Origin: Bacillus cereus
GTDB lineage: Bacteria; Bacillota; Bacilli; Bacillales; Bacillaceae_G
Length of the DNA stretch: 64,000 bases
NCBI RefSeq assembly: GCF_002584535.1
Contig: NZ_NUOT01000013.1
Coordinates: 1 to 64,000, forward strand
Reading direction: 5' to 3'
In this document: positions 1 to 21,290 of the stretch, in pieces
How positions within the stretch are numbered: position 1 is the first letter of the stretch
Layout: the number at the start of each line of letters is the position of its first letter
Translations under genes and position numbers: made by a program
Notes under the pieces: generated by a model
Databases searched by the model: none
What the model was told of the DNA's origin: nothing
Seen by the model: only the letters and a program-made list of their open reading frames with translations

Positions 1-1877
1 CATGTCCAAGTAGTCGTTCCAAGCGAACCCGTACCAGACTTCTTAGGTGCAAAAATAGCACCTTGATGACCACCAATGTTATCAATTGTCCATGATGTAC
101 CTTGTAATTGTGAATTTACGTATGATGATGGTGTATAGTTAATTGGTCCCGCAAAATCGCACCATCCGAAGAACTTTCCATAAGCATGCGTTTCAAAGAA
201 TGGAGCATTTATCGCTACGTTTCCAGATTGTCCATCAATAAATATATTGTTACCAACTGAACCATCAGCATTACGAACCCCAATCGATAATGATGCTTTG
301 GGATTCTTGATTCTTTCAATTGTCCAATACGTAATTTCTCTTCCATCTGAACCGATTGCTTGTGAAACCGTGGAAGCTGGCGAACCTGTAAGAGAATAAA
401 ATTCAATTGCGGATAAGTCTAAATTAATACCAAAACGATTATTTTTTGCTCTCATTGTTCCAGCAACAATAGATTCAGCATTAACATTAATAATGTTTGC
501 TAAGGCTGCATTTAATGTCCCTGCTGTAATAAAATCAGCAACAATGCGTCCATCCATGGTAATTGCGGTTCCGTATGGTCCATTATTCCCTGTGGAAGAA
601 TAACCTAATCCATTTATGTTCCATTGCCAAACCTTTTTAGCTGTCATTTCGTCTTCTGTATCCATGATTAAGATTCTGTCTGGATAATTACGTACATGAC
701 CACCAAAACCACTATTTATAAGGCTCGTTGCATGTTCTTTTGCTGCTTCTAATATAGACGCTGGCATATCAGATATATCATTTTGCATTTGGTCAACTTT
801 ACCTGCTATATCAGTAAATGACGCTTTGTAATTACCTATTGTAATATTCTTGTACTCTTTCTTTAATGGATCATATTTATATGCTATAACTTTCGCTTGA
901 ACGTCAATTCCATCTTCAATGTGTTTAACAGTAACAATGTCACCCATCCACACATATTGCAAAATAGCGTAATTTTTATACTCTTCGGTTTGTGAAAGCT
1001 CTTGAAATTCCACCTTATATGTCCCTTTTGGCTGGTCCACATGTTGTACATCAAACATTTCTTTAGCTGCTTGACGTAATAATTTATACGCTTCTTCGAG
1101 CGGTACTGCATCAGGATCATTTGCATTATCACCAATAGCTGCCTTTATATCTTTAAATTCCACAACTTTTATCTTAGGATGTGGATATTTATTGATAAGT
1201 GGACTATCAACATACTTTTCTGGAAGAAACAACCCATTGAATCCTTGCGGCATAATTCTAGTAATTGGACTTTTCCAATCCACATTTCCTTCGTACCCTA
1301 ATAAATCTTTTTTATGTTGAATCACAACTCCACGATCTATCCCACGATTAACTAACATTTTTACATCAAAGTTATCTCGCTTTAATTCTCCACCCCAACG
1401 ATTGATAAAGGAGTTATCCTGACCACTATCTAAAATAGCTTCAACTGGATTCTTTCTGACAATACGCGAACTGGAAATCTTAGGGATATCAGAATAAAAA
1501 GTAAAAGGATGCTTATATTGACAGCCTTCTGACATACGATGCATTGCTCCGTTCCCGTCTGTGGACTCAGGGAATATATCTTCAATTAGATTTTCCGTTA
1601 AATCGTAAAAAATGTGATAACATTGTACTTTTATTTCCCCCATGCTAACCGTTGGCGTAGAAACCCTAAATAATTGGTTACCATCAGGAGTTGGTGCTTT
1701 AACAATGCACATTCCTTGTATTTCTAAGCCATGTGGAGCGAATAGCGGATAACTAAACGTCAATGAATATAAACCATTTAATATTTCTTCAACTTCAGGT
1801 TCATAAATATTTGCATCTAACACACCAAGACCATTATGCGTAAAATCTGTTTCGTTTGGTTTATATAAGATAATCAT
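1..1877 (-). CDS. Phage tail endopeptidase / minor structural protein (C-terminus outside window)
   Basis: An open frame runs on the minus strand from ATG at 1877 to the window edge without a stop, giving about 625 residues. The ATG overlaps the stop of the upstream Dit gene (ATGA) and follows a GGTGGAG ribosome site. The N-terminal ~330 residues look like the prophage tail endopeptidase family (tail-tip hub, Prophage_tail type). The later part, with Gly/Asn-rich beta-type sequence, looks like a receptor-contact or fibre region. Its place directly after Dit in a siphovirus tail module fits a tail-associated lysin or baseplate hub. The family call is from recognition and gene order, and the C-terminal domains cannot be seen. 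Confidence 0.8.
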   Translation of the reverse strand, partial: MIILYKPNETDFTHNGLGVLDANIYEPEVEEILNGLYSLTFSYPLFAPHGLEIQGMCIVKAPTPDGNQLFRVSTPTVSMGEIKVQCYHIFYDLTENLIEDIFPESTDGNGAMHRMSEGCQYKHPFTFYSDIPKISSSRIVRKNPVEAILDSGQDNSFINRWGGELKRDNFDVKMLVNRGIDRGVVIQHKKDLLGYEGNVDWKSPITRIMPQGFNGLFLPEKYVDSPLINKYPHPKIKVVEFKDIKAAIGDNANDPDAVPLEEAYKLLRQAAKEMFDVQHVDQPKGTYKVEFQELSQTEEYKNYAILQYVWMGDIVTVKHIEDGIDVQAKVIAYKYDPLKKEYKNITIGNYKASFTDIAGKVDQMQNDISDMPASILEAAKEHATSLINSGFGGHVRNYPDRILIMDTEDEMTAKKVWQWNINGLGYSSTGNNGPYGTAITMDGRIVADFITAGTLNAALANIINVNAESIVAGTMRAKNNRFGINLDLSAIEFYSLTGSPASTVSQAIGSDGREITYWTIERIKNPKASLSIGVRNADGSVGNNIFIDGQSGNVAINAPFFETHAYGKFFGWCDFAGPINYTPSSYVNSQLQGTSWTIDNIGGHQGAIFAPKKSGTGSLGTTTWT

Positions 1878-2557
1878 ACATATCTCCACCTAGGTTTGAT
1901 TGTTATTGATTGGACTGTACCTGACCAAGTTATTTTATTACTCCCAACATTGAATACTGGAAACTCACCAACCATCTTATTATTCATAGGTGTTGTTCCT
2001 AAATACGCCTCTAAAATTTCAGAATCAACAACTACAGAGCCTTCAATGTTTTTAAGCTGAAAGGTTACATCATTTATGGTTATATTCACTGTACCTTTTG
2101 CAGTGATCACCATTTCCGGCTGTGACTTTTCTGTACCAGGGTTATATATCAACCCTGGCTCAAAAATCGTAATGCTTTCATCTTCCACATATTCAAATGG
2201 ATCTAGTGTGAAATTAACTTCAAATTCTCCATACTCTTCAATTTCATTTGCAATATCACCTATTTCTACATTCTTTATTTTTCGATAAACAACATCATCA
2301 GTGAAATACAGTATTTTCGCATTTAAAATCCATGGTTTCACACGACGAATGATGGGTTTGATATTTCCCTCTTCTAATACATTAAATTTCATTTTAAAAG
2401 GGACATCTTCATACGCCCCTTTCTTTGTAAGTGCACCGTGTCTTCCTGGCACTTCTATATATTCTACTTTTCGTTTTGCAGTTGGAATAACGGGACGCCC
2501 TACCATATAAATTCCGTAACCACTTGCCAATTCGTTATCTATTACCATGTCAAGCAA
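1874..2557 (-). CDS. Distal tail protein (Dit-like, phage tail family)
   Basis: A 227-residue protein between the tape-measure gene and the tail endopeptidase, the usual place of Dit, the ring protein that joins tail tube to tip. The N-terminus has the typical features of the siphovirus tail family: the V-x-G-R-x-G-A-L-T motif near residue 37 and a beta-rich body ending in a PRWRYV tail. It overlaps both neighbours by a few bases (translational coupling). Dit assignment rests on order, length and motif. Confidence 0.85.
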   Translation of the reverse strand: MLDMVIDNELASGYGIYMVGRPVIPTAKRKVEYIEVPGRHGALTKKGAYEDVPFKMKFNVLEEGNIKPIIRRVKPWILNAKILYFTDDVVYRKIKNVEIGDIANEIEEYGEFEVNFTLDPFEYVEDESITIFEPGLIYNPGTEKSQPEMVITAKGTVNITINDVTFQLKNIEGSVVVDSEILEAYLGTTPMNNKMVGEFPVFNVGSNKITWSGTVQSITIKPRWRYV

Positions 2558-4531
2558 ATGTATTCCTCCCTATCCCAACGTTTAAATTTTGCCCACGTTG
2601 TGCAAGTGCACTATCTATTTTTTCTACCATGCGATCAATATCACGGTCATTTCTGACCACAGGATTGTGAATATGAATTGTAGGCGATTGATTTTCCATT
2701 GTCGCAGCAATCCCTCTGCCAATAGCACCTAACGTTTTTTCGTTAAGAGGTAAAACACCTTCTGGTCCCGCTTCACCGGCTCCTTGGAAACGCCCACCAT
2801 TCATTCCGAAAATAGTTGGTCTAGTAAAAATACCACCTTTAGCACGCCAATCCACATTGATTCCTGTTGGATAAGTAATTGTTTTACCAGCAATCTCTTT
2901 ACTCCCTGTTTCTAAAGAAAAATGCGGTAGTTTTGGCATTTCAGGCTTCGGAATTTTTAATTTAAGACCATCAAAGAATCCCTTGATTTTATCAATCCAA
3001 CCCTTCACCGTATCCGCAGCATCTCTTATTGGATCAATAATATTCTGTTTTGCTGCATTAAATTTTTCTTGTGCAGCGTTTTTCACGGCATCAAATTTCT
3101 CCCTAGCACTGTTATAAATTTCTTGGAATTTATCTCTAACACTGTTATACGCATCTCGAATCGGATCAATAATATATGTTTTCGTTGTATTCCAGGCTGA
3201 AAGCGTGGCTGATTTGATATAATCCCACTTTCCAAGTATCCAAGTTGCCAAATCACTTAATTTTCCGCTTAACCAGGTATATGTCTCTTGAATAGGTTGT
3301 ACAATGTACTGCTTCACTAATGACCACGCTGCTGATGTAGCTGATTTTATCTCTTCCCATTTTCCACTTAACCAGGAAACTAGTTCACCGATTTTTCCAC
3401 TTACCCAGCTATATGCTGAATTTATTGGGTCGATAATATATTTAGATATTAAAGCCCAGGCAATTTGCGTACCTGCTTGAATTAATAGCCATCCCGCCTG
3501 TAGGACGGTAGAAATTAACGAAATAATTGGATCTAAGACTGTGAGAATAGTATTCCACGTATCCTGCCAAGCTTGTACTAATGTCCCCCACAATTGAGAT
3601 GCTGTTTCTACAAGACTTGTCCACCAAGAAGATGCTGTGTTGACAATTCCTGACCACAATTCACTAAAAAATTGACCTATTGGATCGAAAAAACTATGCA
3701 TCATTTCTACAAAGGAAGCCCAGGCTTCCGAAAAATAATTAACTGTGGAAGACCACCCATCGCTACAGACCTGAACTAATCCAGACCACAATTCACCAAA
3801 CCAATCTTTAAATTGCGACCATTTTTCGGAAAGCCAATCGGTTATGGCACCCCAATTTTGAATTACTGCTATAACACCAGCTATCACAGCGGAAAGTCCA
3901 ACTATGATACCTAATAGCGGCCATATTGCAACTCCCAAAGCTCCAAAGGATACAACTACAGCCGCAATAATAGGTGCTAAAATACCAACCACAGCAATCA
4001 ATCCAGTTAAAATAAAAACGAAGTTTTGAACCGGCTCTGGTAATTTTGAAAACCAATCCATTACTGATTTAATCCCTTCAACTAATGGAGGTAAAATAGT
4101 TTGTGCTAACTCAGCGAGTTGCTTTCCAAGCGGTTCAAATGCAGCTTGTGTTTCTCTTAACGCTTTTTGAAATTGCTGACCAAGGGATTCTTCTTGCAAC
4201 TTCTTCATTTCTTCCATTGCACCTTTGGTTTCGCCTAAACCACCGTTTAATTCATTTAGATGCAAAACAGCTTTAGCACCCATGTCTTCCCATTTAGTAC
4301 CGAATAAAGAAACACCAATTTGGTTTGCTGCAACTTGGTCATCCATTCCTTTTAAATCATTAAGAACCGCGTTAAACACATCGGCTGTCGTTGCTTTTCC
4401 TTCATTGAAACTTGCCCAAACACCTTGAGTTTCTTTTGACAATTTGCCAAAACCTTCAGAAACGCCTTTAGATCCATCTTGAACACGTATTCCAAATTCC
4501 TTTACAAGATCGTTAATATAATCGAGATTAT
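2550..4531 (-). CDS. Tape-measure protein, exon 2 (C-terminal 660 codons)
   Basis: Downstream exon of the tape-measure gene. Read alone, the frame would start only at a TTG (4442), with no ribosome site, but the same frame continues upstream to 4531 with typical tape-measure sequence (NLDYIND, KEFGIRVQDGS). Joined to the upstream exon (4755-6072) the coding length is 3,300 nt, exactly 1,100 codons including stop. The exon encodes a hydrophobic block (roughly residues 590-650 of the joined protein, possibly several membrane segments), then Trp-rich repeats of the W-L-S-G-K-W type, and a C-terminus rich in Gly/Pro (GGIFTRPT). This protein sets tail length and is ejected at infection. Confidence 0.9.
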
Positions 4532-4754
4532 CCTTAATACCCCTGCTTTCGCAGTATTTAAAAGGGAGTAGACTATACCATCAACTCAATAAGTTGCCCT
4601 TTGGTAGTCGTTGAGGGCTTCCTTTCGGCTATCCCTGCTGATTGTCCATTGTTTCATCCTTATGATTGTCACGCCATGGTACATAAGGCTTTAGGAGTTC
4701 CCAGCATATTCAGGGTTTCCTACATATTATCGCTAATATGCGGCGCAATTTCTT
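4532..4754 (-). ncRNA. Group I self-splicing intron in the tape-measure gene
   Basis: A 223-nt non-coding insert splits the tape-measure frame; removing exactly these bases joins TCG-T to AT-AAT and restores the frame (GSYNLDYIND). The RNA has group I hallmarks. P1 pairs exon 3' end AUCGU with guide GCGAU (U-G at the splice site). P4 is GCUG (4702-4705) with CAGC (4637-4640). P7 is GACUA (4605-4609), inside CAACGACUA, with UAGUC (4571-4575). P9 is CUGC-GAAA-GCAG (4543-4554). The intron ends in G, as expected for omega-G. Upstream translation would otherwise stop at TAA immediately after the exon. No homing endonuclease frame is inside; it is a minimal ribozyme. Splicing itself is inferred. 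Confidence 0.93.
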
Positions 4755-6072
4755 ACGATCCATCTCGAGTCCCATTCGCTAAAATGTTAAACATCTCATC
4801 AGCACTGAAACCAGCTTGTTTAAAGAGCGGTGCGTATTCTGAAAGGTTGTCAAACAATTCATCAGAATAGTTCAAGCCTTCTTGAGCACCTGCGGCAAGT
4901 AAATCAAATGTTTCTTGCGTAGATAAACCAAACTGAGACATTAACTGTCCTGCACCACGAGTAGCTTCATTCAAGTCTACATCATAGACTTTAGCCAGCG
5001 TTAAAACGTCCTCTGATGCCATTTGCAGTTCTTCATTTGGAACATCCCTCATGTTTTGAAAGACTTTGATAAGTGCCTGGTCAACCTCTTCAAGACTTTC
5101 ACCAAATCCCTTTTTCCAGGTATCTATCGCTATTTTTTGAAGATTTTTAGCACCTTCCCCCGTTAAACCTAAAGAAGCTTGAATCTTTCGTTGAGAGCTA
5201 TCAAAATCTATTGCTATACCTACAGCACCTTTACCAAGTTCAATCAATTGTTGTGACATACCTTGTAGTATTTCACTAGCTTCCATTAAGTTATTTAAAT
5301 CTAATTTTTTCCCTAGTTGCTCCATACTGTCTGCAGCTTGATCTCCACTCTGATCAACATCATGAAGTGAGGTTTCAAATTGCTTTAATGTAGTTTTCGC
5401 CTGATTTAATTTTGCTTCAAGTTGCTGTACTTCTGCTGAATTCTCACCATACACACGCTTTGCTGCACTTAATTGTCTCTCTAAGTTATCAACTACTCTA
5501 TTGGTCAATTGCATTTGTTGACCTAGCTGTCTTTGAGCTAACTGTAATTTATCTGCCGCACTAGCATTTGAGCCTAGTTCCGCTTGTTGCAATTTAAAAG
5601 AACTCGTTAAATTCTTTTGTTCCGCTTCAAGTCTTTTCGTATTTTCTTGTAGCTTCACCAAATCTTCTCTTGCTTCCCTAGCTTCAATTCCTTGTTGTGA
5701 AAGACCTTCATTCACTCGCTTCATTGCATTATTAAGTGAGGTTTCAGCTCGTTCAGCATCCAATAATTTTCCATACATTTTGTTAAGCTGTTCAGCTGTA
5801 GTGTTAGTATCCCTGGACATTGCTTCATATTCAGCTCGCAACATAGCTGTTCTTTTCTTTGCGGCTTCCATTTGAATCTCTAGTTTTTTCTTCTCAGCAC
5901 GGAGTTTATCAGTCATAGTGGCATCTTGACCCATTGCTGCAATATGATTCTTATATTCCTTTGCGGCGTTGTTCATAACCATATTGATTTGTTTCAGCGT
6001 GTTAGCGTACTGTACTTGTCCATCCATTTTAAAGTTAAGAACAACGTTTCTTTCTCTGTTTCCTCCTGGCAT
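4755..6072 (-). CDS. Tape-measure protein, exon 1 (N-terminal 439 codons)
   Basis: The upstream exon encodes a long, charged coiled-coil N-terminus (about residues 25-260, rich in Gln/Glu/Lys/Ala heptads) followed by a typical phage tail TP901-type core region (GFGESLEEVDQAL, MSQFGLSTQETFDLL, ANGTRDGS). The ATG at 6072 follows a GTGAGGTG ribosome site. Without splicing, translation ends at the TAA that straddles the 5' splice site (4753-4755), giving a 439-residue truncated product. The gene sits directly downstream of gpG/gpGT, the normal place for a siphovirus tape measure. Confidence 0.92.
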
Positions 6073-6085
6073 TTTCTCACCTCAC

Positions 6086-6316
6086 TTATCGAAACGGAGT
6101 CTGATCTAACGTATAGATTTGTTTTGGTTTGACTTCATTTAGTGCATCTGGATTGGTGTATCGAAGATGCATAATGAATTGTTTCAAAAAATGATTAGGA
6201 GTGATTTTCCAAAAATCATCCATACTTAAACCTAGCAACGTATTACCAACATAAAAATAAAAATCCCAGTCCAACTCGGACTGAGATTCTTCATTTTTTG
6301 TCAGTATGTTTTTTAC
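6086..6316 (-). CDS. Tail assembly chaperone gpGT extension, reached by -1 frameshift
   Basis: This frame has no convincing start of its own (only a TTG at 6274, no ribosome site), but it is open from the slippery site of the preceding gene. A -1 slip on A AAA AAG gives GTA AAA AAC ATA CTG and continues for 76 codons to a stop at 6086, for a fusion of about 204 residues. The arrangement copies lambda gpG/gpGT: the long form recruits the tape-measure protein while the short form coats it. The frame is read from sequence; frameshifting efficiency is not known. Confidence 0.85.
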   Translation of the reverse strand, partial: VKNILTKNEESQSELDWDFYFYVGNTLLGLSMDDFWKITPNHFLKQFIMHLRYTNPDALNEVKPKQIYTLDQTPFR

Positions 6317-6699
6317 TTTTTTTCTTGCTTCAGTTTCTCCATATCAGAATGTTGGAAAGTTTGACCTTGGAAAATCTCCATTACAACTTTGAAAACACCA
6401 GGTAAATCGTACATAGGTATTGAATTTTTAATTTCGTCAGGTGTACATTCAGTACCACCACTACGAACCATCGCATAAATGAGTGTACTCATTAATTTAA
6501 TTTCTTTTTCACCTAAACTAAATTGTTCTTTTGCCATCATTTCATGCAATTCTTTTTCAAACACATGATATTCTCCACCATATGACTCTTCCACATACGG
6601 AAATGAAGCCATTGTAAAAATAACAGGGATTTCTACTCCCTGTATCTTAATTTTATTTCTATTTATATCAACATTAACTAAATCACTTAAACGTGCCAT
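6313..6699 (-). CDS. Tail assembly chaperone gpG
   Basis: A 128-residue protein between the major tail protein and the tape measure, which by position and size is the gpG-type tail chaperone. Its last codons are GAA AAA AAG TAA, so the slippery heptamer A AAA AAG ends right before the stop, the setting for -1 frameshifting into the overlapping gpGT frame. ATG at 6699 follows a GGAGTGAT ribosome site. The assignment is by position and the frameshift signal; sequence resemblance to known chaperones is weak. Confidence 0.82.
   Translation of the reverse strand: MARLSDLVNVDINRNKIKIQGVEIPVIFTMASFPYVEESYGGEYHVFEKELHEMMAKEQFSLGEKEIKLMSTLIYAMVRSGGTECTPDEIKNSIPMYDLPGVFKVVMEIFQGQTFQHSDMEKLKQEKK
6316..6322 (-). 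promoter_or_regulatory. -1 ribosomal frameshift slippery site A AAA AAG
   Basis: In-frame heptamer A AAA AAG immediately before the gpG stop, the same heptamer used in E. coli dnaX. The -1 frame is open on both sides and carries the gpGT extension. A downstream stimulatory structure was not clearly found. Confidence 0.85.
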
Positions 6700-6710
6700 A
6701 TTATCACTCC

Positions 6711-7340
6711 TTATTGTCCTGTAGTTCCACCAAGCGTTGCTAATTGAGATTCATCACAAATAACTTGCTTCAAGAAATCTTCCGCCTTGATACCTGTTGC
6801 AGTAGCATCACCTGTATCTAATTCAGCCATCGTCACATCATTGTACAGTAGCGGATCAGCTGTAATTTTATATGCAATATCATCCACGGTCATTTCTTCA
6901 TTTTGTGTTTTCCAAGATTCTTCAATAGGAGCAACCGTACACTTTGGATACCAACGTAAAACCTTAGTTCCATCGTTTAATGGAAAAACAACGCCAGTTG
7001 CAAATTTAGGATATTCTTTTGCTTTTGCAGTCTCAAAAGAAACACCTTTTTTACGTATTTTAGCAAACATTTTATCTTTTACTTCACGATTTAAACCAGC
7101 TAGGTTAAATGCTAACTCAAACGCTGTGTTTTTTTGGATATTAATAATTTTTTTATTTGACGCCCATTTAACAAAGTTTGAAGACGTAGTGGAAATTGTT
7201 AAATCAGAAATATTTGTTTGTCCATAAACAGTAGCCTCATAAGTTGGTAATGTACTTGTTGTTTCATCACCTTTCATCATGCATATAAATAGGTCTTCAA
7301 TACCCACAGTATATTGAATCTCTTTATTTTCAATTGTCAT
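6711..7340 (-). CDS. Major tail (tube) protein
   Basis: A 209-residue protein in the canonical position between the tail-completion genes and the tail chaperone. It looks like the Gram-positive siphovirus major tail protein family (phi13 type): N-terminal YTVGIEDLF, central KWASNKKI and a KYPKFATGVVFPLNDG-like stretch before a beta-rich C-terminal half. It would polymerise into the tail tube around the tape measure. It is expected to be among the most strongly translated late genes. Confidence 0.86.
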   Translation of the reverse strand: MTIENKEIQYTVGIEDLFICMMKGDETTSTLPTYEATVYGQTNISDLTISTTSSNFVKWASNKKIINIQKNTAFELAFNLAGLNREVKDKMFAKIRKKGVSFETAKAKEYPKFATGVVFPLNDGTKVLRWYPKCTVAPIEESWKTQNEEMTVDDIAYKITADPLLYNDVTMAELDTGDATATGIKAEDFLKQVICDESQLATLGGTTGQ

Positions 7341-7351
7341 TTATATCATCC

Positions 7352-7729
7352 TCACATTCTATCAATTATTCTTTGAGCCAAAATGTCTGCTACCTTGTCA
7401 CCTTCTGCATCAAACGTATTTTGAGCAAAATGTAAACCTTTCACATGACCTTTGCCATTTGCTTTTTTATGACCATGTTCAGCTAAGTACCAATACCAAG
7501 CCTTGTCCTCAAATTCCACAGATACATAATCACTTTTAATAACAACTTTTAAACTATTTTTTAAATGTGTTCGTTTATTTTTATTTGAAAGCTTAATACG
7601 TTTTTTTAATTCAGCTGCAAAATATTTAGCTGCTTCTTCCAATACGTCCATACTTACTTGTTTATTCACTCGTAACAATGTGTTGATATCTTCCAAAGCA
7701 TCAGCGAATCCATTATGATTACTAGCCAT
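7352..7729 (-). CDS. Tail-completion / HK97 gp10-like protein
   Basis: A 125-residue basic protein with the look of the HK97 gp10 family: an N-terminal helix (AAKYFAAELKKRIKL), a basic loop (SNKNKRTHLKNSL) and a conserved H-x-x-K-x-N-G turn (AEHGHKKANGKGH). In HK97-like phages this protein works at the head-tail joint. It overlaps the next upstream gene by eight bases, as is usual in this module. The family call is from pattern and order. Confidence 0.78.
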   Translation of the reverse strand: MASNHNGFADALEDINTLLRVNKQVSMDVLEEAAKYFAAELKKRIKLSNKNKRTHLKNSLKVVIKSDYVSVEFEDKAWYWYLAEHGHKKANGKGHVKGLHFAQNTFDAEGDKVADILAQRIIDRM

Positions 7730-8054
7730 TAATACACCTCACATACGTTATAAATTGTGTGATTGTATCATCATTTTCATCATAGGGCATTCCTTCAAAT
7801 TGAGCATAAGATACCCCAGCTTCATTAAAAACATCCTTTAATGGTTCATAATCTTGCTCAGTACCCTTTGTAATAACTGCGACTTGATATAAAGGCATTG
7901 ACTTTAAAACCTTATTTGAAGCCCTCTTATGCTGTTCATTCACAAATTCATACACAATATAAGGGTAATCTGAACCTGTAGGAGCACCATCACGATAAAC
8001 TGGAATTCCGGATTGCTTCATGATTGCTCTTAACTGCTCAAAATTAATTTGCAT
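7722..8054 (-). CDS. Tail terminator-like minor protein
   Basis: A 110-residue protein with the pattern PVYRDGAPTGSDYPYIVYEF near the N-terminus, typical of the small tail-terminator or joining proteins of Gram-positive siphoviruses. Such proteins cap the tail tube and set the head-binding end. Overlaps with both neighbours suggest coupled translation. The exact family is not certain. Confidence 0.7.
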   Translation of the reverse strand: MQINFEQLRAIMKQSGIPVYRDGAPTGSDYPYIVYEFVNEQHKRASNKVLKSMPLYQVAVITKGTEQDYEPLKDVFNEAGVSYAQFEGMPYDENDDTITQFITYVRCING

Positions 8055-8379
8055 TAGATAAATTCAACTCCATAATCCGTTCATCTTCACGGACATAAAC
8101 TCTATCAATGTTGTAAATCGTATCTTTAATTTTGATACGATAATCTTTTTGATTTTCTTCAATCGCTCGATCTAAACGAACTTCAATCTTTTTCATGATT
8201 TCATTTCCATCCTGGCGACTGAAATGTTTATCAGTAACCGTTACGCCAATATTGTTATAGAGAATATTCCTTTCAAATGGATATCCCATCACAACACGAT
8301 CTGTATCTGGATCAATCGTTTCACCAAGCTTTAATAAATCAGCTCTCCATTTTAATTTATTCGTCTGTCTCTTCGGCAT
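8044..8379 (-). CDS. Head-tail adaptor / head closure protein
   Basis: The start is taken at ATG 8379, which follows GGAGGTG at good spacing; the frame is open seven codons further up but without a ribosome site. The protein (111 residues, MPKRQTNK start) resembles phage head-tail adaptor proteins (SPP1 gp16/HK97 gp7-like): basic N-terminus, a D-R-V region, and a C-terminal half with alternating charged beta strands (YRIKIKDTIYNIDRV). It closes the portal after packaging. Function is inferred from size and order. Confidence 0.75.
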   Translation of the reverse strand: MPKRQTNKLKWRADLLKLGETIDPDTDRVVMGYPFERNILYNNIGVTVTDKHFSRQDGNEIMKKIEVRLDRAIEENQKDYRIKIKDTIYNIDRVYVREDERIMELNLSNAN

Positions 8380-8620
8380 CGCTAAACACCTCCAGGACAA
8401 AGAAAGGAGTCATTGCATCAAGTGCTTGTTCTAATTCCTTTTCAGATACACGATATTCATACATAATGCCGGCAACCATAATCACTAAGTATTCGGTCTG
8501 TGAGCCTGTCGCATTCTGAACATACTTTTGTGCAGTGGTTAAATAAAAAGAGAGCATGGATTCATCCATCCCCTCTTCCCAATGAATATGAGATTTTAAT
8601 TTCTCAATTAATTCATCCAT
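8357..8620 (-). CDS. Head-tail connector (gp6-like)
   Basis: An 87-residue acidic helical protein directly after the major capsid gene. The first residues (MDELIEKLKSHIHWEEGMDE) and the following YLTTAQKYVQNATG match the pattern of phage gp6-like or DNA-packaging connector proteins, which form the ring under the portal. It overlaps the adaptor gene by 23 bases. Confidence 0.78.
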   Translation of the reverse strand: MDELIEKLKSHIHWEEGMDESMLSFYLTTAQKYVQNATGSQTEYLVIMVAGIMYEYRVSEKELEQALDAMTPFFVLEVFSDAEETDE

Positions 8621-8621
8621 A

Positions 8622-9932
8622 TTAAGCTCCAGTTGTTTCTTTTAAAACATACTTGTAAACTGGCACTTCAAATGGTGAATGAATTAGTTGTGCATCTAGT
8701 AAGTTCCAAATACGGAAACCCACACGGTTTGTACGTGAGAATAACTCAACTAATTTTTGTACTTCTAATGATCCAATGACATCTTGAATGTAGAATTTAG
8801 AGAAGTCACCAAAATAGAAGACTGGCGTATCTGGTTCGCCTGTAATGTCAATTGCATCTTCTTCCTCAACAGGGAATCCTAATAATGTATAACCAATTCC
8901 ACCTTCCGCTTGATTAAATGGACGGAGTAATGGGAAACCATCATCTGTTTTCATTGTTTCAATTTTTGTTAGAGCTGCTGTGTTTAATACCCATCGTGCT
9001 TTTTTACGTACTTCTTTAACAGGTGTATTTTTCATTATTACTAATGCATTGTATAGATCCTTTTCTTCCGTTTTAAATTCAACGGCTTTCTTTGCCAATG
9101 CACCATCATTTATATTATTAGCTTCATCACCATTAACCATATATTGAGTTTCTTTACGAACATAAGCTTTTTTCAGCTCGTCCATAACGATTTGTTCAAT
9201 CGGTAAACCTGTACGTGCTAATAGTTTTTTCGTTACTGTAGCAAGTGCATCAAACTCCGTTGGTGATAATTCAATTTCATCGAACTCAATATCAGTTTCC
9301 GGAATTTCATTATTTGTTCGCTCATTTTTATGACCTTGGGCTTCTGCCTTTTTAACTAAAACAGGATACTTAATATTTTCTTTTGTTTTTACTCCTGTTC
9401 CTAATCGACGTAAGAAGTTTTCTTCTTGAGCATACGTAATAATTTCTTTACTTAAAAAATCTGGAATCGTAACAGAGCCATTACCAGTAACTAAGCCTAA
9501 TGCACGAGCTTCCTTCTCATCAATATTACCCACAATATAATTAGCAAACGCTGAACGAGTTTCCGTTTCTTTGTTTTTAGTAGATTTATGACCTTTAGTA
9601 GAAAGACCTGTTCCAATAGCTGCCATGATTTCAGAACGTTGCTCTTCTGACAGTTCAGTTTTTGCATCTGGATTTTCTTTTGCTGCTGGATCTTCTTTTT
9701 TCTCTGGGTCCTCATCCTTCTTTTTGTCTGGATCTTCTTCTTTTTCTTCCTCTTCTAATTTCGCAATTACATCAGCAAGGGTTTTCGCTTCTTCTGTTAA
9801 TGCTTCTACTTCAGCCTTAACTGCTGCTAATTCTTCTGAACGAACTTCACCCTTCTCTACTTTACCTTGCAATTCTGCTAATCGAGCTTTATTTCGTGCT
9901 TGAGATGCTTTTAAGATTTCTTTTAATTTCAT
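8622..9932 (-). CDS. Major capsid protein, HK97 fold
   Basis: The start is set at ATG 9932 (MKLKEILK), which has a GGAGGAAATGTGAC ribosome site; a longer frame begins 21 bases upstream without support. The 436-residue product has an N-terminal charged coiled coil of about 120 residues (delta/scaffold domain, with a very acidic Glu/Asp/Lys block near residues 65-95), then an HK97-type body (SKEIITYAQEENFLRRLGTGV, PTEFDALATVTKKLLA, DIEQ-like loops). The adjoining prohead protease probably removes the delta domain. Confidence 0.9.
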   Translation of the reverse strand: MKLKEILKASQARNKARLAELQGKVEKGEVRSEELAAVKAEVEALTEEAKTLADVIAKLEEEEKEEDPDKKKDEDPEKKEDPAAKENPDAKTELSEEQRSEIMAAIGTGLSTKGHKSTKNKETETRSAFANYIVGNIDEKEARALGLVTGNGSVTIPDFLSKEIITYAQEENFLRRLGTGVKTKENIKYPVLVKKAEAQGHKNERTNNEIPETDIEFDEIELSPTEFDALATVTKKLLARTGLPIEQIVMDELKKAYVRKETQYMVNGDEANNINDGALAKKAVEFKTEEKDLYNALVIMKNTPVKEVRKKARWVLNTAALTKIETMKTDDGFPLLRPFNQAEGGIGYTLLGFPVEEEDAIDITGEPDTPVFYFGDFSKFYIQDVIGSLEVQKLVELFSRTNRVGFRIWNLLDAQLIHSPFEVPVYKYVLKETTGA

Positions 9933-9933
9933 G

Positions 9934-10515
9934 TCACATTTCCTCCAAAACATTTTTTATTTGTTTAATAAGATTGTTTCTTTCTTCTGTATCATCTTCC
10001 ACAACTGTTTTTACAGCTACTTCTGTACTTCTCATTTCAATCATGGTTGCATTTTCGCCCCTGGTTTCAATTGAAGTTGCAACATATGCTGGTGTCATAT
10101 CCAAAATAGAAACTTCCAAAAGCTCTAATTCTTCAATAGATCGTTTTTGAACACCAGATTCGCCTTCTTCCCATGAATCTTTTTCAGAAACAAAACCAAA
10201 TGACCAGCCACGCAATTCTTTATTCCTTGCCTTCTCAATCACTTGTTCATCTGTAACCGTAGCAATGGCTCTTAAGCCGATATTATCTTCATACAATTCT
10301 AAATTTCCGTTTTCAATGGAACCAAGCTTTCTATTTTTATCATGGTTAAAAAGCAAGTCCACGTTTTGAGCCTTCTTTAACGCCTTTTCAAACGTCTTAG
10401 GAACAATTTTTTCTTTGAAATATCCCCTTGGAGAAGGTAACATCCGACTTTCTCTGTCCACAACATTTACATAACCATCAAGTATGACTTGATTTCCTCG
10501 AACTTCAATTTTCAT
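9934..10515 (-). CDS. HK97-family prohead protease
   Basis: ATG 10515 follows GGGAGGGGGTGAAGAGA and is preferred over the longer frame. The 193-residue protein has the serine-protease features of the HK97 U35 family: NHD in LLFNHDKNRKLG (candidate catalytic His) and GWSFGF (candidate Ser). It would cleave the capsid delta domain during prohead maturation, which fits its place between portal and capsid genes. The start overlaps the end of the portal gene. Confidence 0.88.
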   Translation of the reverse strand: MKIEVRGNQVILDGYVNVVDRESRMLPSPRGYFKEKIVPKTFEKALKKAQNVDLLFNHDKNRKLGSIENGNLELYEDNIGLRAIATVTDEQVIEKARNKELRGWSFGFVSEKDSWEEGESGVQKRSIEELELLEVSILDMTPAYVATSIETRGENATMIEMRSTEVAVKTVVEDDTEERNNLIKQIKNVLEEM

Positions 10516-11689
10516 TCTCTTCACCCCCTCCCAATGAACCATCTGTTGCTTCTTTCTTGCCGATTTCGGTTAAATCATTTGAAATATAAATAGCTTGTGA
10601 TTCTTTTGTATTTTGTTTAGGGAATCCAAGCATACCAGCAACATTGTCAGGTGAAGTAATGGCTGTCCGCACAAGGTTATAACCGATATTCGTTTTGTTG
10701 CTATAAGTGACAAAATCAAGAATATTAATTTTGAATTTAATTCGTTTCCCCGAATTTTGACCATAAAAAAGAAGACTCAAATGGTCTTCAAAATTTTTCA
10801 TTATCGGTCTCACTGCTTTGTTGTGAATATACATCATCGCTTTTTCAATATCTTCTTTGATTAACTCTGTGTATGTATCCACATTTATCCCTAAAAACTT
10901 ACCCAAATCCTTTTTGTATACATTTAGATATGCTAGGGTCTTTTCATCGTCTAGCGGGCTTTTAAGCGTTTCTATTGAATACCCTTTTCCAAGAGGAATC
11001 ATTTTTACAGACCTTGATTCATCGATTGATTCCAGTTGGTCTAAAATTGCATTAATTAACTTTGACTGCGCACCATTCTGTGGATTGATATGGGCATCCA
11101 AATTTAACAAGAATGCTAATAGTCCACCCTTTTTATATTTGTCAGTTAAAGTTTTCTCAGCTGACATAACACCCTCCAGTGTATCTCTTCCCAAATCAAG
11201 AAGACCTTTTCCTCTTAAATGATCTGCACCAATATTTTTCACATGACGAATCATAAATGGAGGGATTTCTTCCCCACCAATATTAAAATGCTCTACTAAA
11301 TTATCATCTAACTCTGTAAAAACATTTGAAGCTAAATGTATTTGAGCACCATTTAATATCGGGAATGTTTCTCCCTCCAGTAAATAGGTATTAGTCATTA
11401 ATTTAATGAATTCAGATTGCGTTAGATAATTATTAGGATTCTTTAAAATACGAAGTGCAATATCATCTTTAATTTCATTACCGAATTCATCTTCCACAAC
11501 AATATCAGCCAATACCATTTGATTACTAATATCTTGTAACAATTCGTAAACATCACTAGATTGTAAGATATTTGAATCTGTAACATACACACCGCCGTAA
11601 CGAATGCTTTTTCCTAAAACATCATCAAGATAACCACGCTTTTCAGCCTTTTTAAATAAATAATTTGAAAACCTATCCCTTAAACCCAA
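10505..11689 (-). CDS. Phage portal protein (HK97 type)
   Basis: A 394-residue portal, the dodecameric ring through which DNA enters and leaves the head. Recognisable parts are an N-terminal helical region (NQMVLADIVVEDEFG), the NPNNYLTQSEFIKL motif, and the C-terminal SLLFYGQNSGKRIKF and GFPKQNTKESQ regions. It is near the low end of the HK97 portal size range. It lies between the terminase and the protease as usual. Confidence 0.9.
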   Translation of the reverse strand: MGLRDRFSNYLFKKAEKRGYLDDVLGKSIRYGGVYVTDSNILQSSDVYELLQDISNQMVLADIVVEDEFGNEIKDDIALRILKNPNNYLTQSEFIKLMTNTYLLEGETFPILNGAQIHLASNVFTELDDNLVEHFNIGGEEIPPFMIRHVKNIGADHLRGKGLLDLGRDTLEGVMSAEKTLTDKYKKGGLLAFLLNLDAHINPQNGAQSKLINAILDQLESIDESRSVKMIPLGKGYSIETLKSPLDDEKTLAYLNVYKKDLGKFLGINVDTYTELIKEDIEKAMMYIHNKAVRPIMKNFEDHLSLLFYGQNSGKRIKFKINILDFVTYSNKTNIGYNLVRTAITSPDNVAGMLGFPKQNTKESQAIYISNDLTEIGKKEATDGSLGGGEENEN

Positions 11690-11704
11690 TTTCTCACCAC
11701 CTCT

Positions 11705-13429
11705 CTATCTATAAATATCACCAATCAATTCATCCATGCCTTCTTCAGTTATGCTATCCATAACCATCATCGTTTCTTTATGAGCACATAAAAAAGCAAC
11801 AAATCCATCAATCTTCTTTTTGGACTGTCGCTTACTTGGGGCTTTCATTCCGTTAATATTTGTTACTACTACAACATTAAGAGCGCAATAAACAAATAAA
11901 GGATTATCTGTAATTAAACGCTTTTCATAAATTAGTATTTCTGAATCATCAAGCATTGCGTTCATAACGTTTGGATATTGATTTACTGCAATACACTCTA
12001 AACCTAGATTTTCAAGCTTTTCTATTAACTTTTGAGACATCGCCGGATCGTAGTTTATTTGTTGCACATCGTACAAATCCATGCATTCAACGATATATTC
12101 CATAACTTGATCCTGATCAATCATCTTTCCATCACAAAACGTAGCAAAACCACGTTCAACCATATCAGTATATGGAACATTGTCCTCTTTTTCTTTAAAA
12201 TCAATATTTTCATTAGGAAGGAAATACATCTGTTTCACTTTTATAATTGACCTTCCTTCATCATCATGTGAAGGGAAGTTTAAACTTACACATGTTAAGT
12301 CTGTTGTTTTAGATAAGTCCAATCCTAAATAACAAATTTCACCTGTAAGATCACCTAAATCTTCCACAAGAACATGTTGTACTTGATCATGCTCAAAATA
12401 ATTATCAGCACCATTTACAAAAACATTTAAGTGTTTGGAAAGGAACTCAGCTTTTGAGTGTGCGGACTGCTTCGCTTTTTTGAATTCAATCTCAAGTTGT
12501 TCCATCGTAACGGAAACACCAATATTCGGGTTAACCATTTCCCAAACTTTACGATCTTCCCAATCATAATTTTTATTTGGTTCCCAGATTGCAACAAACA
12601 AAGAATCATCATCGTCATTTTCAAGAACAAGTTTCGCATATTTATAAACACGCATACCTACAGATGAAGCACCCTTACCAGCCGTTGAAATATTAAGCAT
12701 CATTGGTTGTTCACGAGAAATCTGAGCTGACTTCAAGTTATCGTACATGTCCATATTTTCTTGTGCATGGAGTTCGTCATTCAACACAAAATAAGGGTTC
12801 TTTCCTTCAAGACCCTTGGTGTTTTTCGTTAATACCTTGAATTTATTTTGATATGCAATTCCGTTGATGCTATATCGATACATAGCACCACTAACTGTGC
12901 CATTAACACCTTTATAAATTTGTGTAGGTCGTGCCAGTGGCTCAGAATTTTCTATCGCTTGTGCAATTGGTTCGGCTGCGTTTTGCGCTTGTTCATAGTC
13001 TGATGCTGCACAATAACAATCGGCTCCAAGTTCAAGTTCTCCATACATAGCATAGAGCAATGCGCCTGCTGCGATAATTGTTTTCCCGTTCTTCTTTGGT
13101 ACTTGAACATATGATTCACGAATAACACGAACTGTTTTCCCTTTTTCGTTTTTATGATACCAACCATACATATTCGCAAAAACAAACATTTCCCAAAGTT
13201 CTAATTCCATCAATTGACCTGCAAGCGGACCTTTAACATGACGGATGAACGACTGAACAAAATCCAACATTTCATTTGCCCGATCTACATCAAACCAAAT
13301 ATCTTTACGCTTTTTCCACTTCTTATAACGTTCTACAGCAAGAATGATCGATTTCGGGTATTTCTTTTTATTACGCATGACGTTATTCGCATACTTGTCA
13401 GCGTAGTTAACACCTGGTGTAATAATCAA
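11705..13429 (-). CDS. Terminase large subunit
   Basis: A 574-residue packaging motor. The ATPase half shows a Walker A-like P-K-K-N-G-K-T and an acidic NDELH motif (FVLNDELHAQENMD). The nuclease half has an N-terminal acidic cluster (GLDLSKTTDLTCVS), a second in YDPAMSQ, and a C-terminal K-K-I-D-G-F-V-A loop. It looks like the large-terminase family paired with P27-type small terminases. It is followed by the portal at a 15-base distance and preceded by TerS with a 4-base overlap. Confidence 0.93.
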   Translation of the reverse strand: MIITPGVNYADKYANNVMRNKKKYPKSIILAVERYKKWKKRKDIWFDVDRANEMLDFVQSFIRHVKGPLAGQLMELELWEMFVFANMYGWYHKNEKGKTVRVIRESYVQVPKKNGKTIIAAGALLYAMYGELELGADCYCAASDYEQAQNAAEPIAQAIENSEPLARPTQIYKGVNGTVSGAMYRYSINGIAYQNKFKVLTKNTKGLEGKNPYFVLNDELHAQENMDMYDNLKSAQISREQPMMLNISTAGKGASSVGMRVYKYAKLVLENDDDDSLFVAIWEPNKNYDWEDRKVWEMVNPNIGVSVTMEQLEIEFKKAKQSAHSKAEFLSKHLNVFVNGADNYFEHDQVQHVLVEDLGDLTGEICYLGLDLSKTTDLTCVSLNFPSHDDEGRSIIKVKQMYFLPNENIDFKEKEDNVPYTDMVERGFATFCDGKMIDQDQVMEYIVECMDLYDVQQINYDPAMSQKLIEKLENLGLECIAVNQYPNVMNAMLDDSEILIYEKRLITDNPLFVYCALNVVVVTNINGMKAPSKRQSKKKIDGFVAFLCAHKETMMVMDSITEEGMDELIGDIYR

Positions 13430-13851
13430 TTAGATTTCCGCCATTTATTCCGATGAGCCGCTAATTCATCTTTAGGCTCATTAGATTGGATATTCTCTGC
13501 TTTTTTAGGTGTTTTTTGTACACTTTTCCCCTTATTCGTCATTCCAAGAGATTCTAACATTTTGTTCTTCTTATCATTCCAAGTTTCAACTTGTTGAGCA
13601 AGTGGATGTTTCATTTCATTTGTTGCTCCAGCCTTATTCTTATGCATTTTTGTGGCTGCAAATCCATCCGCTTTCCATTCATCAAACATAGTTTTATAAA
13701 TGATAAAAGCATCTAAATAGTTTTCGATTAATGGTTCTAATGAAGGTGTGAAATTGTCATCCTCAGTCAATAATTTTATGATTCTATTTCGTTCTTTGTC
13801 CCTTGCAACATCTAGCATTTCCAACTTTTTCTTCTTTGACATTCGAGCCAT
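13426..13851 (-). CDS. Terminase small subunit (P27 family)
   Basis: The start is ATG 13851 (MARMSKKKK), after a GGGGGGTGTG ribosome site; six codons upstream are open but unsupported. The 141-residue basic protein has the P27-type pattern: a basic N-terminal arm, then a helical core (LEPLIENYLDAFIIYKTMFDEW) and a basic C-terminus. It recognises the packaging site and feeds DNA to TerL. Its ATG-proximal region is just after the GC-rich intergenic patch that may hold cos. Confidence 0.86.
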   Translation of the reverse strand: MARMSKKKKLEMLDVARDKERNRIIKLLTEDDNFTPSLEPLIENYLDAFIIYKTMFDEWKADGFAATKMHKNKAGATNEMKHPLAQQVETWNDKKNKMLESLGMTNKGKSVQKTPKKAENIQSNEPKDELAAHRNKWRKSN

Positions 13852-13954
13852 TTTCACACCCCCCTTCATTTTTTAAAAATGGTGCAACTATTGATGTGCC
13901 CCCTACGCTACCTATCCTTCCCAAACCAAAAATTTTATTTTTTGACAGGGGGGC
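13852..13954. other. Intergenic patch between TerS and HNH; candidate cos/packaging region
   Basis: This short gap holds runs of G on the minus strand (a CCCCCC tract around 13949) and inverted A/T-rich flanks, and lies exactly where HNH-TerS-TerL phages of Gram-positive hosts usually have cos. No cleavage site can be named from sequence alone. Confidence 0.35.
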
Positions 13955-14329
13955 TTATCCAAAATAACTCGGAAAAACTTTTTTGGGTTTATCTTCATTT
14001 TCTTCTTTGATATGACATTTTGGACAAAGTAGCATTAAATTGTTTGGATCTAATTTAAGTGTTGGACCATCTTTAATTGAAATAATGTGATGAACATGAG
14101 CCCGCCTACCAAATACAAACTTCTTACATCGTTGACAGTAACCTCTCTCACGTTCATATACATATGCTCTAACATACTTCCATTCTTTTGAATTATAGAA
14201 AGACTTGTTATCATGATGGTAGATGTTCTTCTTGTCTTTCTTCTTCCTTGGTTTGTTACGCTTATGCTCTTCACAATAACGCCCTTTGTTTATCTTGTTA
14301 TGACAGCCGTTGAAGTCACAGTATTTCAT
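13955..14329 (-). CDS. HNH endonuclease of the packaging module
   Basis: A 124-residue HNH nuclease. Two zinc-binding CxxC pairs (CQRC and CPKC) flank the catalytic HVHHII stretch, with the H-N-H set completed by the N of DPNNLMLLCPKCH. The protein starts at an ATGA overlap with the upstream gene. HNH proteins next to TerS/TerL are needed for cos cleavage in several HK97-like phages, so this is most likely a packaging factor, not a homing nuclease. Confidence 0.9.
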   Translation of the reverse strand: MKYCDFNGCHNKINKGRYCEEHKRNKPRKKKDKKNIYHHDNKSFYNSKEWKYVRAYVYERERGYCQRCKKFVFGRRAHVHHIISIKDGPTLKLDPNNLMLLCPKCHIKEENEDKPKKVFPSYFG

Positions 14330-14607
14330 GCTAATAAAGCAATAATGTCTTCTTTCTTTTTAACATCAGCTGGAATCTCAACGTTAATCGATGCAGCATA
14401 CTCATGTAATTGTTTCACTGTCATACCATTTAAATTAACTACTGTCTTATCAGGTTCACTTGATAAGTCCATGCCCAGGATCATACTCTCAGGATTAACA
14501 GTTACTTCGAATCCTGGTTCTTCGCCAGTTGGTACAAACAGACTTCGCTTTTCTTTGTTATCCCAATACTCTGTACCTGATATTGTTTTTCTAATTTCAG
14601 TAATCAT
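14326..14607 (-). CDS. Small phage protein with C-terminal HeH/Rho-N-like motif
   Basis: A 93-residue protein upstream of the HNH gene. The last third (MTVKQLHEYAASINVEIP-type) resembles the HeH/SAP/Rho-N helix-extended-helix fold, a small nucleic-acid-binding motif often found in this position. Its job is not known, and a DNA-packaging or DNA-binding role is an inference from motif and context. Confidence 0.7.
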   Translation of the reverse strand: MITEIRKTISGTEYWDNKEKRSLFVPTGEEPGFEVTVNPESMILGMDLSSEPDKTVVNLNGMTVKQLHEYAASINVEIPADVKKKEDIIALLA

Positions 14608-14628
14608 TTAGATTCACCCTTTCATTTA

Positions 14629-14733
14629 TCAATCTAATTCTTTTACTTCCTTTGCTTTGAGGAACTGAATCATGATTAGCAAACACACTATAAATCCTGT
14701 GCCACATCCAAGAAAGTAACTAAACCAACTCAT
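14629..14733 (-). CDS. 34-residue membrane protein
   Basis: A very short frame: ATG 14733 follows GGAAGTGATGAG, and the product has one hydrophobic segment (SYFLGCGTGFIVCLLIMIQF) followed by a basic tail (KAKEVKELD). It is a single-pass membrane protein of unknown role, close to the late genes. A good ribosome site and TM segment are the only support. Confidence 0.55.
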   Translation of the reverse strand: MSWFSYFLGCGTGFIVCLLIMIQFLKAKEVKELD

Positions 14734-14751
14734 CTCATCACTTCCTTATCC

Positions 14752-14778
14752 AAAATAAAAAGCACCCGAATGGATGCT
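14752..14778 (-). terminator. Intrinsic terminator after the 14789 gene
   Basis: Hairpin AGCATCC...GGGTGCT followed by TTTTATTTT on the minus strand, directly downstream of the small acidic-tailed protein gene. Confidence 0.75.
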
Positions 14779-14788
14779 TAGATTAAAC

Positions 14789-14956
14789 TTATTCATTATT
14801 ACTTTCTCTACTTTCATCATTATCTGATTTAGGGTCTAACAAGCTTCCTATATCAGGCGGCATAGTTAACTCTATACCAGCTACTGGCTGATTATCCTCA
14901 TTAAAATAATACTTCTTCACTTTTTTCAATTCTTCATTTTTCTTATTTTCACTCAT
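14789..14956 (-). CDS. Small hydrophilic protein, unknown function
   Basis: ATG 14956 (MSENKKNEELKK) follows AGGCGGGG; eleven upstream codons lack a ribosome site. The 55-residue product has a Lys-rich N-terminus, a short core (IELTMPPDIGSLL) and an acidic Asp/Ser/Glu/Asn tail. It has its own terminator, like its two right-hand neighbours, so it may be a separately transcribed accessory gene. No family recognised. Confidence 0.55.
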   Translation of the reverse strand: MSENKKNEELKKVKKYYFNEDNQPVAGIELTMPPDIGSLLDPKSDNDESRESNNE

Positions 14957-15062
14957 ATTACCCCGCCTTTTATGTATGATATTAAACACTTTACTTAATA
15001 TTTACATTGAGAAAGATAATATACTATTTTTTCAACTCTCACACGACTTATATAATTTTTGC

Positions 15063-15094
15063 ATAATAAAAAGCACTCCTATAAGGAATGCTTT
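15063..15094 (-). terminator. Terminator overlapping the end of the 15079 gene
   Basis: Hairpin AAAGCATTCC-TTAT-AGGAGTGCTTT with a TTTATTATG tail on the minus strand, overlapping the stop codon of the HEPN-like gene. Confidence 0.8.
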
Positions 15095-15555
15095 TCACTA
15101 ACTTTATAAACAATATATTCCCCTTTGGAAATTAGATAAGCAACTAGTAACATACAGAATCCTCTCAGCGTCCCTATAATACTTGGGTCATTGAGAGTAT
15201 ACTCCTGGGCAAACCATTTCCTATCTTGAGGTAATGCGCTATACAATTCATTAATCAATTTCTCATCAATTTCTTGATTATAATAATGTGCTATATTATT
15301 TCTTACACGATTAAATTTATTATAAGCCCCTCGCATATCATCACTTATTATATCCAAGGCATGAACCAATTGAAGCTTTTGGGCAAAGCTAAAATTATTT
15401 AAATCAATTGCTTTAGAATTAGGTAAATTCTTTTCAAGAATTTGTATCATTATAGATTCAATATATAAGTGAGATTTTAAAAAAACATATAATGGCTCTT
15501 CGTTTTTCATATCTTTACTAAACTTAGCAAGTATAATATTTACTGACTCCTTCAC
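15079..15555 (-). CDS. Small HEPN-like protein, possible accessory or defence gene
   Basis: A 158-residue helical protein with GTG start at 15555 after AAGGAGGGATAGTAT. The middle has the pattern FNRVRNNIAHYY, an R-x4-H motif of the HEPN type (also seen in the MltR/DUF4145-like relatives), preceded by FAQKLQLVHALDII. HEPN domains act as RNases in toxin-antitoxin and abortive infection systems; others are non-catalytic, so activity cannot be assumed. It has its own terminator and lies beside a second protein with an equivalent motif. Confidence 0.62.
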   Translation of the reverse strand: MKESVNIILAKFSKDMKNEEPLYVFLKSHLYIESIMIQILEKNLPNSKAIDLNNFSFAQKLQLVHALDIISDDMRGAYNKFNRVRNNIAHYYNQEIDEKLINELYSALPQDRKWFAQEYTLNDPSIIGTLRGFCMLLVAYLISKGEYIVYKVSEKHSL

Positions 15556-15600
15556 ATACTATCCCTCCTTAAACATATAATACCGATCTCTTTAATTTTT

Positions 15601-15628
15601 TATAATAAAAAGCACCCTAGAAGTTGCT
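15601..15628 (-). terminator. Terminator after the 15630 gene
   Basis: Minus-strand hairpin AGCA...TGCT followed by TTTTATTATA; its GGGTGCTTTTTATT half matches the terminators at 14752 and 15063. Confidence 0.65.
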
Positions 15629-15629
15629 T

Positions 15630-16589: not shown

Positions 16590-17232
16590 TTCATCTCTCC
16601 TTCTGCATATCTATATTTCGACAAAATGAGGTGTTTTCCTGCATATTTTTTAATATATACTTTTAGTTCATCCTAATAGCTCTTTTCATTCGTTTATACG
16701 TATCACGATTAGTTCCCATTAAATCCTTTTAATCTCTATGACTTAAATTCTCTTTTTTCCTTTATTTAGGTTTTAAGCCTAGTTTTCATACCATTTACCC
16801 TTCATCAAAACTATCTTATCTTTGTTTTTATTCTTCTCCCAATCACCGCATTTTTTATTTCTGACTACACGCCATGTGTCGGTGACTAGGAGAAGAGCAA
16901 AAAGCTCCCCCAGGAAATATATTTTAATTTGTATTGAGATGTAAAGTGTTTCCGCACCTGCACCTCTTTGAATCAACACAAATGGTAAACTTATTGACTC
17001 AAAGAAGAGCAGAAGCTCTTCCATAGACCGTTTAGATTAATGAAATATTGTTCTTATTACGTTTAGTATTACAAAGAGGTTCGCAACTCCCCTTTGTAAT
17101 ACAGTGTATTGAAAAAATCTCCTACAAACGCTGATTCATTCAAACAGCAACTTATAGGAACTGGTTCGGCAACCTTCATATATAGGTGGCATTATGATGA
17201 CAAAAATACACGTTTTTATAACAAAAACCTTA
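16590..17232. other. Non-coding stretch upstream of the accessory cassette
   Basis: No convincing gene. An 81-codon minus-strand frame at 16779-17024 has no ribosome site and no recognisable family. The stretch holds two hairpins: GAAGAGC/GCTCTTC (17003-17021) and an 11-bp-arm repeat GTATTACAAAG/CTTTGTAATAC (17066-17102). It probably contains the promoter for the accessory genes, and an end point for the regulator transcript. Confidence 0.5.
17066..17102. repeat. Inverted repeat with 11-bp arms
   Basis: GTATTACAAAG and CTTTGTAATAC around a 15-base centre, which itself has G-C pairs (GG/CC). No T-tract on either side; could be an operator or processed RNA hairpin. Confidence 0.6.
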
Positions 17233-17730: not shown

Positions 17731-17868
17731 ATGTTGTATTCCCTCCTTAATAAAAAGAGGACGTTGGTTATACATAGGATTTCTTCCTATACATAATCAA
17801 CGCCCTCAAATGTGGACTATTCATTTTGTTTTCTATTTTTCTTAATTTAATACGATATGTGAAATTAT

Positions 17869-18722: not shown

Positions 18723-18967
18723 GTTAATTCCTCACTTTCCACATAAAAAATCCAAATCTCGTAAAACATGTTTATTTTCCACTTTGAGACGTTTTATACT
18801 ATCCTAGACTTATCGCACTAGAAAATTTTTAAAACCTAAATTCACCCTGTTTTATGAAGCCGTTTTTTCTACAAAATGAAATTTTTATTATATTTTTGCA
18901 CCTTGAAGAGCAACTAGCATACATTATCATGTGTGCCACATTCTACTTTGAGGACCCGTCTTACTTT

Positions 18968-19313: not shown

Positions 19314-19414
19314 TATAATCCTTTTCCATTCACACATACTATTCATGAGTCAATTTACCAATACGAGTCATTTGGGTACTTTTAAAATCTTCCTAAGTTA
19401 ATTTACTCCTCATG

Positions 19415-21277: not shown

Positions 21278-21290
21278 ATGTTTACCAAAA

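Follow-up and report, generated by a model that had tools for sequence, protein, structure and literature searches.

The stretch of DNA analysed here (hereafter the window; 64,000 nucleotides of the Bacillus cereus contig NZ_NUOT01000013.1) carries two minus-strand open reading frames, 6072-4753 (439 aa) and 4442-2550 (630 aa from the first listed start), which flank the segment 4754-4532. Both belong to one tape-measure profile, where exon 1 corresponds to positions 85-452 and exon 2 to positions 507-1022 of phrog_58, in this order, and the protein encoded by the 5' exon shares 67-94% identity (best segment) with the 80 viral relatives kept for comparison. Among the eight proteins given to PHROGs, the neighbours were identified as terminase large subunit, portal, major tail protein, tail assembly chaperone, Dit and HNH nuclease. 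Since a serine recombinase is encoded at 28691-30136 and host-type genes (isocitrate lyase, malate synthase) lie beyond it, we regard the region as a prophage, which runs off the window edge at position 1; the GC content is low (35%). The Pfam search in the window comprised 30 proteins, 24 of them from the prophage (13426-30136) and six from the host side, and left out several small ORFs of the scanned region and most of 1-13400. Two adjacent prophage proteins (15079-16589), one with a HEPN match below and one with an MtlR match above the cut-off, are possibly accessory or defence genes. In host DNA just outside the prophage, a 67-aa ORF is covered by a sub-threshold match to the cspA thermoregulator (31278-31639; 67.7 bits against a cut-off of 78). 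The features of the tape-measure locus, together with the HNH gene, are compiled in Table 1.

Table 1. Features of the interrupted tape-measure gene, helices of the intron RNA and the HNH nuclease gene (window coordinates).
Feature	Position	Strand	Description and support
Group I intron, 223 nt	4532..4754	-	Starts AAGAAATT, ends TATTAAGG, terminal G; RF00028 match, empty site in relatives, covariation
Tape-measure 5' exon, 1,318 nt (439 codons + 1 nt)	4755..6072	-	phrog_58 tail length tape measure, E 3.9e-66
Tape-measure 3' exon, 1,982 nt (2 nt + 660 codons incl. stop)	2550..4531	-	phrog_58; abuts the 5' exon in uninterrupted relatives
P1	4744..4757	-	Exon CGU + intron AA with UUGCG, loop GAAA, U-G wobble at the 5' splice site; 5/5 pairs in 4/4 introns; Rfam alignment
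P2 hairpin	4722..4741	-	8 bp, GCGA loop; one compensatory pair
P3	4597..4715	-	CCCU 4715-4712 with AGGG 4600-4597; 16/16 cells paired; one pair varies one-sidedly, U-A to U-G
P4	4636..4706	-	UGCUG 4706-4702 with CAGCA 4640-4636, encloses P5 and P5a; P4 invariant
P5a	4688-4682 / 4664-4658	-	Two compensatory pairs
P6/P6a	4615..4635	-	GGG/CCC + CC-GAAA-GG; invariant, all paired
P7 (guanosine site)	4571..4609	-	GACUA 4609-4605 with UAGUC 4575-4571; invariant, all paired; aligned in the RF00028 match
P8	4596-4582	-	Enclosed by P7; never varies
P9	4540..4566	-	CCC/GGG + CUGC-GAAA-GCAG; three compensatory pairs, all from intron L209
HNH nuclease gene	13955..14329	-	Near terminase genes; PF01844, phrog_144; not specific to intron-bearing phages

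The intervening segment had been described as a minimal group I intron within the tape-measure gene, and an Rfam match, empty sites, homologous inserts and covariation agree with this placement at exactly the ends proposed. Joining of the two frames yields 3,300 nt, which by arithmetic only are the expected 1,100 codons if the stop is counted, i.e., 1,099 residues. In the unspliced frame, translation stops after 439 aa, as had been noted, at a UAA composed of the last exon U and the first intron AA. The claim that an endonuclease gene is absent from the intron is likewise supported, as 223 nt (at most 74 codons) are too short for the usual one. The term “minimal” is fair, but the size is not exceptional, as group I introns of near 200 nt are known.

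Comparison with phage relatives provided the most direct view of the junction. Relatives of exon 1 are encoded in 101 viral stretches; the best 80 of them were retained, and in 75 of these 80 loci a tape-measure homologue covers the joined junction, the exact site being uninterrupted without any extra base. Four loci (L013, L060, L061, L062) hold a homologous 222-nt insert at the same point, and one (L069) ends before the junction, leaving 79 that could be judged. Two intron patterns each led to the same six contigs, all with the intron in tape-measure genes at this point; these comprise four contigs found again (L205, the contig of L060; L061; L206, that of L013; L209, that of L062) as well as the two new contigs L208 and L207, the latter being divergent (protein identity of 55.8% in the exon 1 part and 35.5% in the exon 2 part). 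Counting the window, seven contigs hold an insert of 222-223 nt at the same point, representing four distinct introns. A scan of the genome collection added two distant tape-measure relatives, one of them from Priestia, and DNA searches gave partial intron matches in 19 phage and three plasmid records, none of which covered 80% of the query. Nine tape-measure relatives (L071-L077, L079, L080) feature an exon 1 region that is longer by about 119 codons, and in L073, which is one of these nine, the frame is uninterrupted.

For the analysis of RNA structure, the four distinct introns (distinctness was judged by eye) were aligned over 256 columns and helices P1-P9 were drawn on the window copy. 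Each of the 54 pairs in this drawing is standard in every intron (216/216 cells), while controls with slid partners were paired to at most 46.3%. Because the structure was drawn from one of these sequences and only four introns were available, compensatory pairs weigh more than the percentage paired. Six such pairs were found (one in P2, two in P5a and three in P9) against a mean of 2.1 in shuffled alignments, and none of 500 shuffles was as good; additional pair types are unremarkable (57/500 shuffles). The core of P3, P4, P6, P7 and P8, with its crossing P3/P7 arrangement, has only standard pairs in all four introns. Most core pairs are invariant, the covariation coming from P2, P5a and P9, and P4, P6, P7 and P8 without variation are silent for or against the structure.

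Several elements named in the preliminary description, namely P4, P7, the GAAA-capped P9 hairpin and a final G (position 4532 in the window, with the homologous base in the other three introns), recur in all four distinct introns. A U-G pair at the 5' splice site with the exon ending in U is equally present in 4/4 introns. P1 itself had to be revised: the AUCGU/GCGAU pairing originally suggested shows one mismatch each in L207 and L209 (two of four introns), and the partner chosen for it falls within P2, partly in the hairpin loop and partly in its stem. It was rejected in favour of CGUAA/UUGCG, which forms 5/5 pairs in all four. A P10 pairing was not found by eye. The minimum-energy fold does not discriminate (z -0.59; 56/200 shuffles as good), and since the unconstrained thermodynamic fold does not surpass that of shuffled sequences, homology and covariation carry the case for the intron. 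An unremarkable fold would also be expected if there were no ribozyme here at all and the insert reflected an accidental insertion, a frameshift or an assembly error; such an origin is, however, extremely improbable for an insert of 222-223 nt that occupies the same point in seven contigs and shows covariation.

Assignment to a curated family was less straightforward. The covariance search with the Rfam model Intron_gpI (RF00028), proposed earlier as a check, did return the intron in a 501-nt scan (33.4 bits, E 7.6e-7; 4765-4550, spanning the full length of the model), but below the curated cut-off of 50, and the sister intron in L207 also stayed under this value (31.8 bits, 501-nt scan). The cut-off is a curation threshold and not a structural feature. 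In the scan of the whole window against Rfam no intron appeared at gathering level or at E 0.1, and full-length scans of L206, L207 and L209 miss the intron as well. A model built from the four distinct introns (R1), whose E-values are rough, gave 24 matches in the 19 viral loci searched with it, partly by construction, as these loci were taken from 120 stretches found with the core pattern of the window intron. R1 matches occur in 97 of 397 genomes from the order of the Priestia relative (E up to 1e-4). Among 13 R1-matched loci scanned, a gathering-level RF00028 match overlaps the R1 match in seven (L085, L093 and L152, which had been chosen by the core pattern taken from the window intron, and L215, L216, L217 and L236), lies elsewhere in L211, and was not obtained in the remaining five (L212, L213, L218, L219, L230). 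In L240, RF00028 overlaps an R1 match at 84.9 bits, and no RF00028 match at E 0.001 was obtained for L210 and L242, whose R1 matches are the best ones outside this set. In 14 tape-measure loci, of which ten have a proven empty site, R1 detected nothing intron-sized; its best match there, at the empty site of L007 and L028, reached 13.7 bits and spanned 25 bases. Via R1, the window intron is homologous to introns that pass the curated Rfam cut-off.

The weak Rfam score could point to a decayed intron that no longer splices, in a dead prophage whose tape-measure gene is thereby broken. Yet none of the 54 drawn pairs is disrupted in the window copy, and the substitutions by which copies differ are compensated; moreover, both exons are open and close to those of relatives, and six further contigs carry the same intron, which makes decay very improbable. 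We consider the prophage tape-measure gene to be interrupted by a small and apparently self-splicing group I intron, which is real but ordinary.

The distribution of the intron was traced on an exon 1 tree (84 rows, 73 of them different). Its presence implies four gains or losses, at least three of which are forced by starred branches, and carriers cluster more than in shuffles (1/500 as low), although three rows among the six carriers are identical; L207 is only half filled and long-branched, and its placement is unsure. The six nearest kin of the window (L001-L006), up to 94% identical, are all devoid of the intron. Sequence comparison establishes the identity of the intron, its ends, its conserved structure and its patchy presence.

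Regarding the route of spread, the introns are 83.8-92.4% identical, whereas the exon DNA located 30-300 nt away reaches 50-82% (ungapped comparison). Directly beside the intron, the window, L206 and L207 share 93-100% identity over 15 nt to either side, and the nearest kin of the window differ at a few bases within these flanks. Five empty alleles (L007-L010, L028) share the flank of the intron alleles and are one base off on the 3' side. In L209, the flanks differ (73% and 60%), but its intron is still 87.9% identical to that of the window and 90.5% to that of L207. The exon end CGT, which is needed for P1, is found in all four distinct intron alleles and in 23 of the 75 empty ones. This pattern looks like a transfer of the intron together with a short flank, and conserved protein sequence as well as losses could contribute to it. 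We infer lateral movement of the intron, and losses could explain part of its present distribution. A passive, laterally moved intron fits best, so that the “passive parasite” offered as one of two options in the preliminary description is better supported than the other, given 75 of 79 judged loci without the intron and four changes on the tree. A more far-reaching but rather unlikely scenario would be an endonuclease-free intron lineage that has specialised on one conserved point of the tape-measure gene, moves between divergent phages with short flanks and makes tail production dependent on splicing in a manner open to selection.

As regards genes for homing functions, the HNH family PF01844 was present in seven of ten records, comprising two of four with the intron and five of six without, some records being fragments; it occurs in the window and also in the intronless kin G007, G008 and G009. 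GIY-YIG and HNH_3 were detected in none of nine records (four with and five without the intron, some of them fragments). Across these three families in related records and Pfam on the 30 window proteins, the HNH gene near the terminase was the only hit in the search for a dedicated endonuclease.

The other option raised earlier was that splicing serves as a late-stage switch, being held back until late infection or suitable growth and in this way controlling tail assembly. In favour of this idea, the unspliced message can yield only the 439-aa fragment, and T4 introns reportedly need translation and follow the growth state, as far as the title of the 2007 study by Sandegren and Sjoberg indicates. 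Nevertheless, 75 of 79 judged viral relatives manage without the intron, including all six nearest kin, and no regulatory RNA family had a match within the prophage portion of the window; no riboswitch family was matched in the window as a whole, the sub-threshold cspA hit in host DNA being the sole match of the whole-window scans. We found no evidence for a switch and regard regulated splicing as very improbable; the intron presumably has no regulatory role.

Taken together, the locus very probably harbours a self-splicing group I intron without a protein of its own, which is most likely passively carried by the prophage. In the late mRNA, P1 with its U-G wobble would offer the 5' splice site to attack by a guanosine bound at P7. 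The freed 5' exon would subsequently attack after the terminal G, and joining of the exons would restore a split tyrosine codon (T|AT) and thereby a single tape-measure protein of 1,099 residues, while translation of any unspliced message would end at once at the border UAA. The intron probably reaches the same site in other phages by recombination between the conserved flanks, perhaps aided by an endonuclease acting in trans.

Spliced introns have precedents in phage tail genes. Introns in tape-measure genes are already known from phage ICP1, where spliced transcripts were demonstrated by RNA-seq and RT-PCR, and the tape-measure gene has been called frequently interrupted (PMC10448857). As in the window, ICP1 introns break the tape-measure gene and some are without an endonuclease gene; in contrast, ICP1 is a different phage with three introns, usually one of them with an HNH-3 endonuclease, instead of one short intron, and the available text does not state the group of its tape-measure introns (PMC10448857). 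Mycobacteriophage BAKA carries a 265-bp tail-gene intron with splicing confirmed by RT-PCR, which is likewise short, endonuclease-free and ends in G after an exon U, and which was also found by comparison with an uninterrupted relative (PMC3706429). It differs in residing in a minor tail gene of a mycobacterial phage (PMC3706429).

Further candidates emerged from the R1 searches. On the Clostridioides difficile plasmid NZ_CP029155 (L240), an R1 match of 132.8 bits lies in a gene annotated as tape measure on both sides; unlike the window, this is another tape-measure gene, with two adjacent intron matches around a very short exon-like stretch. There (1323-1894), the R1 matches of 132.8 and 43.4 bits, the second being the one recovered by RF00028, flank an open stretch of about nine codons, which suggests a micro-exon. 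L210, from the same order as the Priestia relative, carries an intron in a tape-measure gene (R1 185.2 bits), and the phrog_1272 match of its upstream frame extends to position 414, which is also where the match of window exon 1 stops. A match of 94.4 bits lies in an annotated tape-measure gene of a Priestia aryabhattai plasmid (L241). Flanking frames were scanned for 20 of 30 R1 loci from the genomes of that order; 11 of these loci match ribonucleotide reductase, one a tape measure, one a minor head or tail protein and one an unknown family, and six gave no match. L223 features two R1 matches 73 nt apart (1501-2054), with an upstream frame lacking a PHROG match at 1e-5. In the Prevotella phage Lak-B1 (L242; R1 161.4 bits), the flanks resemble, by eye, an anaerobic ribonucleotide reductase if TAG is read as an amino acid.

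Within the Bacillus cereus group itself, group I introns of recA, nrdE, nrdF and prophages were reportedly covered by Tourasse and Kolsto in 2008. Like the intron of the window, these introns are thought to have spread through phages (PMC3984707). Literature searches retrieved no title or abstract naming the intron described here, most subscription papers being out of their scope.

The intron is one more case in line with published work in which tape-measure genes emerge as frequent targets of introns (PMC10448857). For the annotation of phage genomes, it illustrates that a tape-measure gene can look split where a small intron scores under the Rfam cut-off. Finally, the coexistence of four loci with and 75 without the intron, together with nearly identical flanks in some empty alleles, provides a natural setting in which to test how introns lacking an endonuclease of their own spread among temperate phages.
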